A model generated the notes under the pieces. The model was not told where the DNA came from. It ran no database searches and saw only the letters and a list, made by a program, of their open reading frames with translations. The translations under genes and the position numbers were made by a program. Of a stretch of DNA of 64,000 bases, positions 5,668 through 61,030 are shown in pieces (position 1 is the first letter of the stretch; each line of letters begins with the position of its first letter). Location of the stretch: positions 186,001-250,000 of the forward strand of contig NZ_WQNI01000001.1 of assembly GCF_010993735.1 (NCBI RefSeq), in the 5' to 3' direction. This DNA comes from Chelativorans alearensis (GTDB lineage: Bacteria; Pseudomonadota; Alphaproteobacteria; Rhizobiales; Rhizobiaceae).

Positions 5668-5836
5668 AAGGCAATCGCATATGAGTCTTTTTTTGCCGGC
5701 TTCGCCAGAACCCCCACCCCTCACCCCTCCCCTCAAGGGGGAGGGGGATTCTGAGACGTCGACGCACCCCTCCCCCTTGAGGGGAGGGGTAAGGGGTGGG
5801 GGTCCGATCGAAGACTCAGAATCCATATGCGATAGC
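5668..5836. repeat. Composite palindromic repeat, copy 1
   Basis: Two C/G-rich arms, 5711-5747 and 5767-5802, are inverted relative to each other (CCCCCACCCCTCACCCCTCC against GGGGAGGGGTAAGGGGTGGG), and each is itself partly palindromic around CTCAAGGGGGAGG or CCTTGAGGGG. Shorter outer arms around GCATATG (near 5673) and CATATGCGAT (near 5824) suggest the unit spans about 170 bases. Related copies lie at 10767-10858, 13079-13261 and 60880-61030. It sits after the galD stop and before the LysR gene, and could fold as a transcript terminator. Confidence 0.85.
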
Positions 5837-7348: not shown

Positions 7349-9205
7349 CTATTCACCGATCCCGATTACGCGGGGGGAATCGGAATAAACCTCCTCCACC
7401 CATTCGCTTCGGCTGCGCAGCACGGCGCGCTGGTTGATCGAGCCCTTGTCGGTCATCTCTCCCTTATCCATGGAGGGGGGAGGATCGACGAGGATCATCC
7501 TGCGGATCAGCGTCGAGGAGCCGGTGCTGGTTGCGGCGAGGCCTTTCAGTTTCTCGCGCAGATGAGCGCGCACGGTCTCATCCGCGGCGAGGCTTCGCGC
7601 CTCCTTGGGCGTGTCAGGCTCGGCGAGTTTTGCGAGGGCGCCCAGGTCGGGGAAGACGAGGGCGGCGAGGTAGGGGCGGTCGGCGCCGGCGATGGCGACA
7701 TCGTGGACCGCCGCGCCGAAATGGTCGATGAAGCGGGTGCGCAAGGCGCCGGTGCTGACCCATGTGCCGGTGTCGAGCTTGAAGTTCTCCGCCGTGCGGC
7801 CATCGAAGAAGAAGCCGGCCTGCATGTCGTCCGGATCGGCAAAGCGCAGCGCGTCGCCGAAGCGGTAGTAGCCTTCCTCGTCGAAGGCTTCCGCCGTCAA
7901 CGCCGGCGTGTTCCAGTAGCCCGGTGTGATGTTCGGCCCCTTCACGCGGGCGTCGAGCTTGCCGTCGAGCGGCACCAGCTTGAGCGACACGCCAAGGCAG
8001 GGCAGGCCGACATTGCCGGCCTTCTCCTGCGGCCAAGTGCACATGAGCGCCGCCGGCGCGGTCTCGGTGGCGCCGAGCCCGGTGGCGATGACGATGCGCC
8101 GGCCGGTGGTTTCGACTGCAAGCCGCTCCAGCGCGTCCCAGGTGTGCTGCGCCATGCCGGCGCCGGCGTACCAGATGAGCTTTAAATTCTTGAAGAAGCT
8201 CTCGCGCAGGTCCCCATCGGCTTGAAGATGCGGGATCAGCGCCTCGAAACCCTTGGGGACGTTGAAATACCAGGTCGGCGAAACCTCCTTGAGGTTGCGC
8301 ACCGTCCTGCCGATGTCGGCCTGTGTGGGGCGGCCGTCGTCGATATAAAGCGTGCCGCCGTTGAAGATCGGCATGTAAAAGAGCTTGTTGCCGCCGGCCG
8401 TGTGGTGCCAGGGCGCCCAGTCGAGCAGCAGCGGCGGCTCGTCCTTGAAATAGGCGAAGGTCTCGCGGCTCATGATCTGGTTGGACGAGATCATGCGGTT
8501 TGTGTTGACGACCGCCTTCGGCGTTCCCGTGGAGCCTGAGGTGAAGAGGAACTTGGCGATGGTCTCGCCGGTGACGGAGCGGAAGGCTTCGTCGACCGCC
8601 GGGCCGGGTTCGGTCGCCAGCGCCTCGGCAAAATCTTCTTCAAGGCCGCGCGCACCCTTCGTGAAGAGCCGCTTTACCCCCGGCGCCACCGCCTCGATGG
8701 CGGGGCCGAAGCGTTCGGCATCGGCGGCGAAGACGAGGGCGGGGCGGATCGTCTCGAAGGTCCCGCGCAGCCGCGTGTAATCGGTGGAGACCAGCGAATA
8801 GGCGGGCGAGATGGCGGCATAGGGGATGCCGGCATAGACGGCGGCGAGGCCGAGCAGCGCGTGCTCGATGTCGTTGCCGGAAAGGATGGCCAGCGGGGCG
8901 GAAGCGGAAAGGCCACGGTCGAGCAGATACTGGCCGAGGCGCCGGGCATGGGCGAGGGCCTTGGCATAGCTCAAGCGGCGCCAGTTCCCGTCCGCGCCGC
9001 GCTCGGCCAGCACCGTCCGGTCGGGCGCGCGGGCCGCCCAATGGACCAGCATGTCGGCGATGCGCTCGGGGTAGGGCGGCAGGGGCGCTTTCTGCTCCAG
9101 GTAGAGGACGCCGCCCGGCCCGTGCCGGACCTCGACCTCGGGCGCCCAGCACCGCACGGGACGAAACGGGGCCGCGAGCCAGGGCTTCGGCGCGGATTCG
9201 TTCAT
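7349..9205 (-). CDS. Feruloyl-CoA synthetase-like hydroxycinnamate-CoA ligase
   Basis: A 618-residue AMP-forming acyl-CoA synthetase. The nucleotide loop FLFTSGSTGTPKAVV lies at about 219-233, and the C-terminal GEMTDKGSINQRAVLRSR is typical of feruloyl-CoA synthetases (Fcs), which are longer than ordinary 4-coumarate-CoA ligases. It should activate ferulate, p-coumarate or caffeate with ATP and CoA in the cytoplasm. The start is the ATG at 9205, preceded by AGGGAGGACGG; an in-frame upstream ATG at 9316 reads through the operator region. It is divergent from the crotonase gene at 9470, with shared palindromic operators between, and the MarR regulator lies next to the crotonase. Another aryl acid cannot be excluded as substrate. 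Confidence 0.87.
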   Translation of the reverse strand: MNESAPKPWLAAPFRPVRCWAPEVEVRHGPGGVLYLEQKAPLPPYPERIADMLVHWAARAPDRTVLAERGADGNWRRLSYAKALAHARRLGQYLLDRGLSASAPLAILSGNDIEHALLGLAAVYAGIPYAAISPAYSLVSTDYTRLRGTFETIRPALVFAADAERFGPAIEAVAPGVKRLFTKGARGLEEDFAEALATEPGPAVDEAFRSVTGETIAKFLFTSGSTGTPKAVVNTNRMISSNQIMSRETFAYFKDEPPLLLDWAPWHHTAGGNKLFYMPIFNGGTLYIDDGRPTQADIGRTVRNLKEVSPTWYFNVPKGFEALIPHLQADGDLRESFFKNLKLIWYAGAGMAQHTWDALERLAVETTGRRIVIATGLGATETAPAALMCTWPQEKAGNVGLPCLGVSLKLVPLDGKLDARVKGPNITPGYWNTPALTAEAFDEEGYYRFGDALRFADPDDMQAGFFFDGRTAENFKLDTGTWVSTGALRTRFIDHFGAAVHDVAIAGADRPYLAALVFPDLGALAKLAEPDTPKEARSLAADETVRAHLREKLKGLAATSTGSSTLIRRMILVDPPPSMDKGEMTDKGSINQRAVLRSRSEWVEEVYSDSPRVIGIGE

Positions 9206-9228
9206 ACCGTCCTCCCTAGTGGTCTGAC

Positions 9229-9324
9229 CCAAACAGATGGTACCCATCTGTTTGGAAAAGTCAGCCCACAAGCTATTGGTCTGGTGGGGCGATTTGTCCT
9301 GACAGATGGGTACCATCTGTCAGG
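9229..9324. promoter_or_regulatory. Pair of long palindromic operators between the CoA-ligase and crotonase genes
   Basis: Two perfect palindromes with 12-base arms and 3-base centres: 9229-9255 (CCAAACAGATGG, TAC, CCATCTGTTTGG) and 9298-9324 (CCTGACAGATGG, GTA, CCATCTGTCAGG). They share the core ACAGATGG-N3-CCATCTGT and are 69 bases apart centre to centre. They lie inside a wider inverted pair, CTAGTGGT (9216-9223) and ACCACTAG (9330-9337). They lie upstream of the CoA-ligase start, so they probably control it; whether the local MarR protein binds them is inference. Confidence 0.75.
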
Positions 9325-9363
9325 ATCGCACCACTAGGCAGGCCCGGAGAGGGCCCGCCTCAC

Positions 9364-9396
9364 TTGACACAAACGAATGCATTCGGTCATTAGTAA
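9364..9396 (+). promoter_or_regulatory. Candidate crotonase promoter with embedded palindromic operator
   Basis: TTGACA at 9364-9369 is a consensus -35 box, and an AT-rich -10 region follows about 17 to 21 bases on (TCATTAGTAA, 9387-9396). Between them is a perfect 12-base palindrome, CGAATGCATTCG (9374-9385). This is a classic arrangement for repression by a MarR dimer occluding RNA polymerase. The transcript would cover the crotonase, MarR and possibly the amidohydrolase and TRAP genes. Confidence 0.65.
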
Positions 9397-9469
9397 TAAT
9401 TGAAAAGTGAACAGTGTCAATTTCAACAAGAGCACTGATCCGAGACCTGAGAACGGAGGCTCCCGGCCA

Positions 9470-10252
9470 ATGGCGCTGGTCAATTACGAGATCGACGACG
9501 GCATTGCGGTTCTGACGCTCTCCCGGCCACAAAAGCGCAACGCCATGAGCGATGCCATGCTGGCCGATCTCGGCGCCGCGGTCGACCGCGCCGCGGGCGA
9601 AGCGAGGGCCGCCGTGATCGCCGGGAAGGGAGAGCACTTCTGTGCCGGGCTCGACCTTTCCGAGCAGGTGGAAAAGTCGGTCATGGAAGGCATCGCCGGC
9701 TCGCGCGGCTGGCATGCCGTCTTCAGCCGCATCCAGCGCGGCGCGATCCCCTATTTCATCGCGCTCCACGGTGCTGTGGTGGGCGGCGGGCTGGAGCTGG
9801 CGGCCGCCGGCCATGTGCGGGTTGCCGACGCCAACACCCGTTTCGCCCTGCCGGAGGGCCAGCGCGGCATCTTCGTCGGCGGCGGCGGCTCGGTGAACGT
9901 CGCCCGCCTGATGGGCGTGGCGCGGATGACGGACATGATGCTGACCGGCCGCGTTCTGACGGCCGACGAGGCCGAGCGCTACGGCATCGTTACCTACCTG
10001 ACCGAGCCCGGTGGGGCGCTCGCCAGGGCGAAGGAGTTGGCAAAGCTTGCGGCGAAGAACGCGCCGCTTTCCAACTACGCCATCGTCAATGCCCTGCAGC
10101 GCATCCACGACAGCGGCTACGACGAGGGGCTGTTCTTCGAATCCATGATCGCCTCGCTCACCCAGGCGACGCCGGAAGCCCATGAGCGGCTGCGCGCCTT
10201 CCTAGACAAGAAGGCGGAGCGCCTCGCCATCCCGACCGGAACGGAGGCCTGA
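9470..10252 (+). CDS. Enoyl-CoA hydratase/crotonase, probable hydroxycinnamoyl-CoA hydratase
   Basis: A 260-residue crotonase. The oxyanion-hole segment KGEHFCAGLDL is at about 53-63. Both catalytic acids of true hydratases appear conserved: Glu109 in VVGGGLELA and Glu129 in FALPEGQRGIF. It should add water to p-coumaroyl- or feruloyl-CoA; cleavage to an aldehyde plus acetyl-CoA is possible, but the amidohydrolase downstream hints at a beta-oxidative route. The start ATG at 9470 has GGAGG ten bases upstream; a GTG at 9407 in frame lacks support. It overlaps no gene but is only two bases from the MarR start, so they are co-transcribed. Confidence 0.85.
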   Translation: MALVNYEIDDGIAVLTLSRPQKRNAMSDAMLADLGAAVDRAAGEARAAVIAGKGEHFCAGLDLSEQVEKSVMEGIAGSRGWHAVFSRIQRGAIPYFIALHGAVVGGGLELAAAGHVRVADANTRFALPEGQRGIFVGGGGSVNVARLMGVARMTDMMLTGRVLTADEAERYGIVTYLTEPGGALARAKELAKLAAKNAPLSNYAIVNALQRIHDSGYDEGLFFESMIASLTQATPEAHERLRAFLDKKAERLAIPTGTEA

Positions 10253-10254
10253 CC

Positions 10255-10746
10255 ATGACCGGCGCGGAGATCTTGCCGGCCGAGGCGGCCGGGATCGAGG
10301 ACGGCAAGGCCGGGCTCTCCTTCGGCAAGTTCGAGCGCTCCGCGGGGTTCCTCCTGCGCATTGCCCAGCTCACGGCGTTCGAGCGCATGTTCGCGGAACT
10401 GAAGGGCGCTGACGTCAAGATCGGCGAGTTCACCATCCTTCTTGCCATCGCGGAGAACCCCGGTGTGCGCCAGGGCGCGATGGCCGATGTCTTGAAGATA
10501 AAATGGTCGAACATGACCAAGCTGGTGCGCTCGCTGGAGGGGCGGGGGCTGGTGCAGCGTTTCGTGCCGCCGCAGGACCGCCGCTCGGTCGAGCTGCGGT
10601 TGACCGAAGAGGGCCGCAAGCTGCTCGAAGCCTTCTCGCCGCTCATGTTTGAGGCCGACCGGCGCGCCCTTCCCATGCTGTCGGACGAGGAGCATGGCCA
10701 CTTCCTGGCGCTGCTCAGAAAGGTATCGGGATGGCCACCGCTGTGA
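10255..10746 (+). CDS. MarR-family transcriptional regulator (CouR-like context)
   Basis: A 163-residue winged-helix protein. The MarR core is visible: LAIAENPGVRQGAMADVLKI, then a recognition helix KWSNMTKLVRSLEGRGLVQR and a wing with DRRSVELRLTEEGRKLL. MarR proteins of hydroxycinnamate operons (CouR, FerR) repress in the absence of the aryl-CoA ester. Its place immediately after the crotonase and near two kinds of palindromic operator supports the same role here. The N-terminal 25 residues are unlike the core and may help dimerise. Confidence 0.88.
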   Translation: MTGAEILPAEAAGIEDGKAGLSFGKFERSAGFLLRIAQLTAFERMFAELKGADVKIGEFTILLAIAENPGVRQGAMADVLKIKWSNMTKLVRSLEGRGLVQRFVPPQDRRSVELRLTEEGRKLLEAFSPLMFEADRRALPMLSDEEHGHFLALLRKVSGWPPL

Positions 10747-10766
10747 TGCCGCGCCCCCTGATCGGA

Positions 10767-10858
10767 CCCCCACCCCTCACTCCTCCCCACAGGGGGGAGG
10801 GGGATTCTGAGGCGTTGGCGCCCCCCTCCCCCTTGTGGGGAGGGGTGAGGGGTGGGGG
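10767..10858. repeat. Composite palindromic repeat, copy 2
   Basis: Arms at 10767-10803 (CCCCCACCCCTCACTCCTCC onward) and 10821-10858 (ending GGGGTGAGGGGTGGGGG) are inverted copies of those at 5711-5802, with a centre of only 17 bases. The outer flank around TCCATGTGCGACA (10886-10898) weakly recalls the CATATGCGAT ends of copies 1 and 3. It separates the MarR gene from the amidohydrolase gene, so a strong hairpin would form in any read-through transcript. Confidence 0.82.
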
Positions 10859-10920
10859 TCCAGGCGAAGCAGAACAAGGTCCCCGTCCATGTGCGACAAC
10901 CTGGCTGAATGGAGGCCATG

Positions 10921-13078: not shown

Positions 13079-13261
13079 GGCAGGGCTATCGCATATGGAA
13101 TTTGAGTCCTTGGTCGAACCCCCACCCCTTACCCCTCCCCTCAAGGGGGAGGGGGGCGTCGACGTCTCGGAATCCCCCTCCCCCTTGAGGGGAGGGGTAA
13201 GGGGTGGGGGTTCCGGCGAAGCCGGCAAGAATGACTCATATGCAATTGCAATAGCCCTGCC
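13079..13261. repeat. Composite palindromic repeat, copy 3, with clear terminal inverted repeats
   Basis: The best-preserved copy. Ends GGCAGGGCTAT (13079-13089) and ATAGCCCTGCC (13251-13261) are perfect inverted repeats, with GCATATG and CATATGC just inside. C/G-rich arms lie at about 13120-13156 and 13173-13210 around a 17-base centre. The unit is 183 bases, carries no open frame, and looks like a MITE-like element. It lies between dctP and dctQ of one TRAP operon, so its hairpin could reduce read-through from receptor to permease. Confidence 0.85.
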
Positions 13262-24433: not shown

Positions 24434-24609
24434 CCCCTTCGCGCCCCCCTCTGTCCTGCCGGACATCTCCCCCGCATGGGGGGAGATTTGCTGTCATCGT
24501 CGCCTTCGCCAATCCTCCAACGCTGCAGAAGAGGCGAAACGTCGATGAAGGGATAATCTCCCCCCATGCGGGGGAGATGTCCGGCAGGACAGAGGGGGGC
24601 GCGAAGGGG
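24434..24609. repeat. Perfect 54-base inverted repeat
   Basis: Left arm 24434-24487 (starting CCCCTTCGCGCCCCCCTCTG) and right arm 24556-24609 match over all 54 bases in inverted orientation, with a 68-base centre. Imperfect outer arms (ACAGTTGTATAT near 24401, ATATCGTAACTGT near 24619) suggest a larger element. Each arm has its own small palindrome, CTCCCCCGCATGGGGGGAG. It carries no open frame, and with the preceding palindrome it fills the 359-base gap between dctP and the YciI-like gene. Confidence 0.88.
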
Positions 24610-60879: not shown

Positions 60880-61030
60880 CCCCTCCCCCTTGAGGGGAGG
60901 GGTGAGGGGTGGGGGTCGTCACGACGGCCGCCGGCCTACGTGATTTGCCGGTTCCTTGCCATAACAAGGGAATGCCGGTGCGCGATCGCCGCTACCCCCA
61001 CCCCTTACCCCTCCCCTCAGGGGGGAGGGG
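60880..61030. repeat. Composite palindromic repeat, copy 4 (arms in reversed order)
   Basis: Arm 60880-60915 (CCCCTCCCCCTTGAGGGGAG onward) and arm 60995-61030 (CCCCCACCCCTTACCCCTCC onward) are the same two arms as in copies 1 to 3, but in the opposite order, with 79 bases of unrelated sequence between. The arms therefore belong to two separate insertions or a rearranged unit. It fills most of the 305-base gap between the binding protein and ATPase genes, where no gene is seen. Confidence 0.8.

Follow-up and report, generated by a model that had tools for sequence, protein, structure and literature searches.

RIME (Rhizobium-specific intergenic mosaic elements) are about 108 bp long, contain two large palindromes and are found in relatives of Rhizobium. 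REPs carry a GTAG mark at their termini, and a TA duplication together with a preference for CTAG is the signature of IS630/Tc1-mariner-type elements. The repeat unit of pneumococcus (RUP) and other TA-target MITEs are presented in a review (PMC2229807) as dispersed, non-coding elements of about 107-120 bp with a TA target and a proposed IS630-type mobilisation. Correia/NEMIS and ERIC are described in the literature (PMC2229807, PMC10969869) as short palindromic MITEs of other bacteria that can lie in transcripts, and NEMIS/Correia transcripts are reported there to be cut by RNase III. A comparable set of genes surrounds CouR of R. jostii, which PMC4737184 describes as a p-coumaroyl-CoA-responsive MarR repressor encoded beside crotonase and CoA-ligase genes, with one inverted repeat controlling divergent promoters.

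In the 64,000-nucleotide stretch of Chelativorans alearensis DNA analysed here (the window), a MarR gene likewise lies beside crotonase and CoA-ligase genes:

7349-9205, minus strand: AMP-binding acyl-/feruloyl-CoA ligase-like gene (Pfam AMP-binding, 4.7e-43)
9470-10252, plus strand: crotonase, enoyl-CoA hydratase family (ECH_1, 6.5e-36; PRK08150 above the cut-off; best solved relative 3hin, 1.4e-71)
10255-10746, plus strand: MarR-family regulator, CouR-like (MarR, 3.8e-12; best solved relative CouR 6c28, E 3e-13)

The ligase start at position 9205 was assumed, and the score of the ligase against NCBIfam PRK12582 (1.3e-217, 723.9 bits) was below the cut-off of 777. The initial annotation had read the region between the ligase and crotonase genes as a divergent promoter packed with three palindromic operators. 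The two palindromes nearest to the ligase gene belong to one 122-bp unit, which is a MITE; it was assigned to this class because it is short and non-coding and has terminal repeats and a target duplication. Its parts are:

9216-9337, no strand: the MITE, target bases included, C-TA-[element]-TA-G, 122 bp (copies elsewhere in the genome, empty sites, duplicated TA, preference for CTAG)
9217-9218, no strand: left TA of the duplication (by the C7 copy described below; the empty site of genome G006 reads CTCG here)
9219-9334, no strand: element proper, 116 bp, GTGGTCTGACC...GGATCGCACCAC (ends set by comparing another copy with its empty site)
9229-9255, no strand: palindrome A of the element (letters; two-sided changes within the palindrome across copies)
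9297-9325, no strand: palindrome B of the element (letters; covariation count across copies)
9335-9336, no strand: right TA of the duplication (TA duplication at the C7 copy; TA flanks across copies)

Palindrome A consists of 27 nt with perfect 12-nt arms and a TAC centre (CCAAACAGATGG-TAC-CCATCTGTTTGG), and palindrome B of 29 nt with perfect 13-nt arms and a GTA centre (TCCTGACAGATGG-GTA-CCATCTGTCAGGA). Both are perfect, as had been claimed, but the second is slightly longer than the 27 bases ascribed to it. The letters confirmed the motif ACAGATGG-N3-CCATCTGT in both palindromes (9233-9251 and 9302-9320, 69 bases apart) and the outer pair CTAGTGGT (9216-9223) and ACCACTAG (9330-9337) that brackets them. 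When up to three mismatches were allowed, palindromes A and B were the sole matches to this motif in the window; 0.16 matches were expected, and two were obtained in 1 of 100 shuffles. Positions 9211-9272 and 9281-9342 form a 62-nt inverted repeat with 79% complementarity, the arms of which pair across the whole unit, and RNA folding of 9211-9342 gave -82.1 kcal/mol (z = -10.3). The G+C content of the unit was 52%, compared with 65% for the window. An Rfam search of positions 9000-9600 gave no matches up to E 1.

A BLAST search with positions 9205-9350 against the same genome (5.7 Mb, 36 contigs) located the sequence at at least 41 distinct places, at least 30 of them near full length; 29 near-full copies besides that of the window had identities of 82-98%. 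These counts are lower bounds, with 40 of 59 first-look candidates scored. Recurrence of the ACAGATGG palindromes across the genome had been set beforehand as the check on the operator reading, and the outcome decided against it. Forms of about 50 bp with an internal deletion were present at five places (L036 3076-3126, L037 3123-3173, L048 6794-6845, L050 1570-1622 and L038 3271-3323). They keep both ends, joined by one palindrome, and look like products of recombination between the two palindromes. The distribution of the element was patchy: it was found in 4 of 16 genomes of the genus (4 of 61 genomes overall), and the named hosts were Chelativorans, Nitratireductor and Hoeflea, in a record search that may omit the window's own records. 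Judged by description, the element resembles RIME; it differs in its distribution, having occurred in 10 of 394 genomes of the family. The plasmid and phage collections searched gave no match, and no earlier description of the element was found among the top-ranked results of the open-licence literature searched.

The copies were often intergenic, as judged with gene models from a small codon-score script. With the same simple models, 9 of the 30 near-full copies in this genome overlay a predicted TAG stop codon (L003, L004, L005, L006, L010, L017, L021, L025 and L026); for comparison, a predicted stop was present at 1 of the 14 CTAG sites of the window. The element starts with G after the TA, so its insertion restores a TAG stop.

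Empty partners were found for four element sites by comparing the flanks of fetched loci. The window site is empty in G006, which reads CCGTCCTCC-CTCG-GCGGGCC compared with CCGTCCTCC-CTAG[..]CTAG-GCAGGCC in the window. The C7 copy of genome G000 (GACA-TA[GTGG..CCAC]TA-GGGC) has the empty counterpart GACA-TA-GGGC in C. xinjiangense, which fixes the duplication as TA; in the window copy by itself, a CTAG duplication is indistinguishable from a TA duplication. At the third site C. xinjiangense has the element and the window's genome lacks it, and the fourth pair (L011 and L125) is less clean, with two extra bases. Genome G002 is probably C. xinjiangense, because its copy (L032) and a C. xinjiangense copy (L135) share their flanks. 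The copies fetched numbered 76 after removal of repeats with the same flanks; they came from several species and each had at least 105 bases aligned. TA was kept on both sides in 36 of them, the target being CTAG in 29, CTAA in 3, GTAG in 2 and ATAG in 2. CTAG itself is rare in the window, with 14 occurrences as against about 207 expected from base composition.

The sharing of ACAGATGG is a property of the element and not of the ligase/crotonase promoter. The reading as a pair of operators in the divergent promoter, to which a second regulator or the MarR protein would bind, has in its favour the perfect symmetry and the 69-bp spacing, and the two-sided changes within each palindrome across copies would also suit a dimer-binding site. 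This reading is nevertheless extremely improbable, as the same sequence lies at at least 41 places, including the predicted stop codons, and is absent from the ligase/crotonase promoter in the 7 other aligned members of the genus. As promoter-specific operators the ACAGATGG palindromes were ruled out by the dispersion and the empty sites. The outer pair belongs to the same mobile element, and the deduction that two different motifs imply two regulators lapses, since the palindromes of a mobile element need no second regulator.

The terminal inverted repeats CTAGTGGT/ACCACTAG are perfect over only about 8 bp, target bases included. The TA duplication and the CTAG preference of the element agree with the IS630/Tc1-mariner-type signature, from which we infer an IS630-type mobilisation. 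The search for a parent covered two transposase families, DDE_3 and Y1. DDE_3 genes gave 26 match rows in 8 of the 9 element-bearing genomes; none of these had the end pair of the element and one (L078) had related ends, several of the loci ending at contig ends. L078 of genome G004 (1370-2522) is an intact IS630-type IS of 1153 bp with 12-bp ends TAGTGGATTGAT, inserted in CTAG and encoding a DDE_3 transposase of 360 aa. It has TA-GTGG termini and a CTAG site like the element and comes from the same genus, but its ends differ from those of the element (TAGTGGTCTGACC / TAGTGGTGCGATCC), and it is not the direct parent. The TA duplication at CTAG sites and the IS with related ends in G004 together support the IS630 type. 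No TAGTGG end pair was detected in the stretch examined around the single DDE_3 gene of the window's own genome, and L075 and L154 each had one end-like match (TAGTGGTCCGAC and TAGTGATCTGAC, respectively) next to a DDE_3 gene, for which no partner end was found. In the fetched loci, 14 inward-facing end pairs represented 11 distinct intervals. A Pfam scan of 20 ORFs from 10 of these intervals, with some small ORFs left out, revealed no transposase, and the eleventh (L134) contained no ORF of 140 aa. An autonomous IS with the ends of the element was thus not found in the DDE_3 loci and end-pair intervals examined. Compared with RUP by description, the element differs in that its parent IS was not found and in the long palindrome in each half; Correia/NEMIS and ERIC were also compared by description.

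Two palindromes in inverted order, an often intergenic location and a high copy number would equally be expected of a repeat of REP/REPIN or BIME type moved by a RAYT (Y1) transposase. It is very unlikely that the unit is such a repeat and not a MITE. Y1_Tnp (PF01797) was detected in only 1 of 16 genomes of the genus (G002) and not in the window's own genome, the termini are without the GTAG mark, and a TA duplication was present at an empty site.

The internal structure of the MITE was compared in an alignment (A1) of 55 copies (53 distinct) taken from 57 of exactly 122 nt; the two left out were L131 5881-6002, in which the middle is rearranged, and the very divergent L107 4013-4134. Local hairpins in each half accounted for 30 double-change cells, a number reached by 0 of 500 shuffles (10.7 +/- 2.5); the cells are numbers of copies and not of events. 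Column pairs 15/39 and 20/34 held 23 of these 30 cells. Of the two dominant changes, one (C-G to G-C) was present in 14 copies, largely from Nitratireductor and Hoeflea; the other (A-T to G-C) was present in 9 copies, in both backgrounds. Double changes occurred in 7 pairs, compared with 5.0 in shuffles (54 of 500 as high), which was not unusual, and neither was the number of further pair types (139 of 500 shuffles as high). In palindrome A of 15 copies from the window's genome and one G009 copy only 2 of 192 cells had a double change. The B half appears constant, as the records of named hosts were fetched by an exact pattern in columns 89-118, which lie in that half.

One long hairpin spanning the unit was considered as the maintained fold and rejected, since its 8 double-change cells did not exceed the 6.3 +/- 2.1 of the shuffles (137 of 500 as high). 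Its covariation score (0.065) was not below that of the local hairpins (0.056), but it was less above its shuffles. Covariation was stronger within each half of the element than between the halves, and such symmetric change would suit separate hairpins in the two halves or dimer-binding sites alike.

The promoter region to the right of the MITE contains the following features, listed together with the Shine-Dalgarno sequence on its left:

9211-9215, minus strand: GGAGG, Shine-Dalgarno sequence of the CoA-ligase gene, adjoining the 122-bp unit (letters)
9364-9369, plus strand: TTGACA, probable -35 for transcription of the crotonase (couA-like) gene (TTGAC shared by all 8 aligned members of the genus)
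9374-9385, no strand: third palindrome CGAATGCATTCG, candidate operator, outside the element (promoters of relatives; genome scan of the 12-mer)
9389-9422, no strand: conserved promoter block ATTAGTAATAATTGAAAAGTGAACAGTGTCAATT, alternative candidate MarR site (genus alignment)
9398-9393, minus strand: TATTAC, putative -10 of the CoA-ligase promoter, spacer 16 (conserved place in all 8 aligned members of the genus)
9415-9420, minus strand: TTGACA, probable -35 for divergent transcription of the CoA-ligase gene (TGTCAA shared by all 8 aligned members of the genus)

A consensus scan of both strands found no sigma-70-type promoter at threshold, and both TTGACA promoters scored below it; the divergent promoter is therefore based on conservation. 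Its boxes are conserved in the aligned genus members in which the element is absent. The third palindrome is a perfect 12-mer located 3' of TTGACA 9364-9369, and its placement between the -35 and -10 of the crotonase promoter was correct as regards position and TTGACA, but the '-10' is weak. It was the only perfect copy among the genome matches listed, which were ranked from the best downwards and extended into those with two mismatches.

For a role of the third palindrome as operator speak its location outside the element and between conserved boxes, and its symmetry in the closest relatives G002, where it is identical, and G006, where a symmetric change gives CGAATATATTCG. Of the 8 genus members aligned, 3 have it with perfect symmetry; in the other 5, which are more distant, it is degenerate with the right side partly kept, and in 12 order-level loci no counterpart was seen. 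Several of these loci contain inverted repeats such as TTGTTTACAAGGAAACAA at about the place that matches 9389-9422 (by eye). In the order-level relatives of L146-L151, repeats such as TTGTTTACAAGGAAACAA or ATTGTCTAC..GTAGACAAT were noted by eye upstream of the crotonase start, and these may be ancestral MarR sites. From sequence comparison, CGAATGCATTCG is a plausible operator of the CouR-like MarR protein, and the block 9389-9422 is at least as good a candidate. The R. jostii CouR box given in PMC4737184 (cATTGA-N5-TCAATg) differs from CGAATGCATTCG, and the protein similarity is distant. The best solved relatives, CouR for the MarR protein and 3hin for the crotonase, make control by a hydroxycinnamoyl-CoA, through either site, a fair guess, which the CouR-like protein would fit. 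Transposable-element arms are thereby no longer mistaken for a new class of operator, and the search for the bases bound by MarR is directed to 9364-9422.

With a ligase transcript start near 9386, two thirds of a leader of about 180 bases would consist of the 122-bp unit, which ends at GGAGG, and we infer that the element lies in the ligase mRNA leader. In one-sequence folding predictions, the unpaired probabilities of the five GGAGG bases were 0.10, 0.98, 0.17, 0.16 and 0.16 with the element, 0.89, 0.98, 0.99, 0.99 and 0.03 when the element was removed and the flanks were joined, and 0.93, 0.94, 0.95, 0.26 and 0.25 in G006. The element is thus predicted to cover the Shine-Dalgarno sequence. 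The ligase ATG was predicted to be more open with the element (0.73, 0.38, 0.40) than without it (0.41, 0.19, 0.07), and most open in G006 (0.96, 0.95, 0.34).

On the minus strand the ligase frame continues without a stop across the element as far as an ATG at 9316 (9316-9205), and the ligase could in principle carry a 37-residue N-terminal extension from this in-frame start. We regard this as hardly probable, because no Shine-Dalgarno sequence was seen by eye before 9316, and the GGAGG before 9205 is retained in both G002 and G006.

The element might have been kept as a control part, its leader hairpin setting translation of the ligase or stability of its mRNA as for Correia/NEMIS. The abutment on the Shine-Dalgarno sequence and the predicted covering argue for such a function, as do the RNase III processing of MITE-bearing transcripts described in reviews (PMC2229807, PMC10969869) and the ligase leader of G002, where a different palindromic repeat takes the place of the MITE (crotonase 98% identical). 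On the other hand, the ATG is predicted to be more open with the element, and such an insert is missing from G006 (crotonase 97% identical) and from 5 other aligned genus members. Two unlike insertions in one leader may also merely indicate that it tolerates insertion. Retention for control is accordingly possible but on the whole unlikely. Still less probable is the more specific proposal that an undescribed MITE family of Chelativorans, Nitratireductor and Hoeflea keeps two local hairpins rather than one long hairpin and so works either by folding of a strand or through paired sites for proteins, and that it has become, in this species, a gate on translation of the coumaroyl/feruloyl-CoA ligase by capping the Shine-Dalgarno sequence. 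If it did, a mobile element would tune production of the CoA thioester sensed by the CouR-like repressor.

The account that we favour with high confidence is that a MITE inserted between the divergent promoters and the ligase gene, that its effect, if any, is on the leader, and that the MarR protein acts through the older promoter. The element would have jumped into this region after the split from G006, and probably also after that from G002. The minus-strand ligase promoter (TTGACA 9420-9415) would then transcribe through the element, so that the ligase mRNA would begin with a leader in which a very stable hairpin extends as far as the Shine-Dalgarno sequence. The likeliest effect, if any, would be on translation or stability of the ligase mRNA and not on extra binding of a repressor, and the CouR-like MarR protein would act to the right of the element, through CGAATGCATTCG and/or the block 9389-9422. 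The correction of the operator reading is useful, and the element is ordinary in kind. A CTAG-targeted MITE family with empty sites provides material for the study of how small elements come to lie in leaders and at stop codons. Should the hairpin in the leader matter, the locus would be a simple natural experiment on how a mobile element can reset the amount of a catabolic enzyme.

A second family of palindromic repeats, with CCCCCACCCCTYACCCCTCCCCTCAAGGGGGAGGGG arms, was noted in the window at 5700-5813, 10764-10861, 13116-13213 and 60880-61030. Positions 13100-13230 of this family gave 90 matches in the same genome, both strands of each palindrome being counted, and a similar repeat is present in the ligase leader of G002 at the place where the window has the MITE. 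At 24434-24609 the window also contains an inverted repeat whose 55-nt arms match perfectly and lie 66 nt apart.
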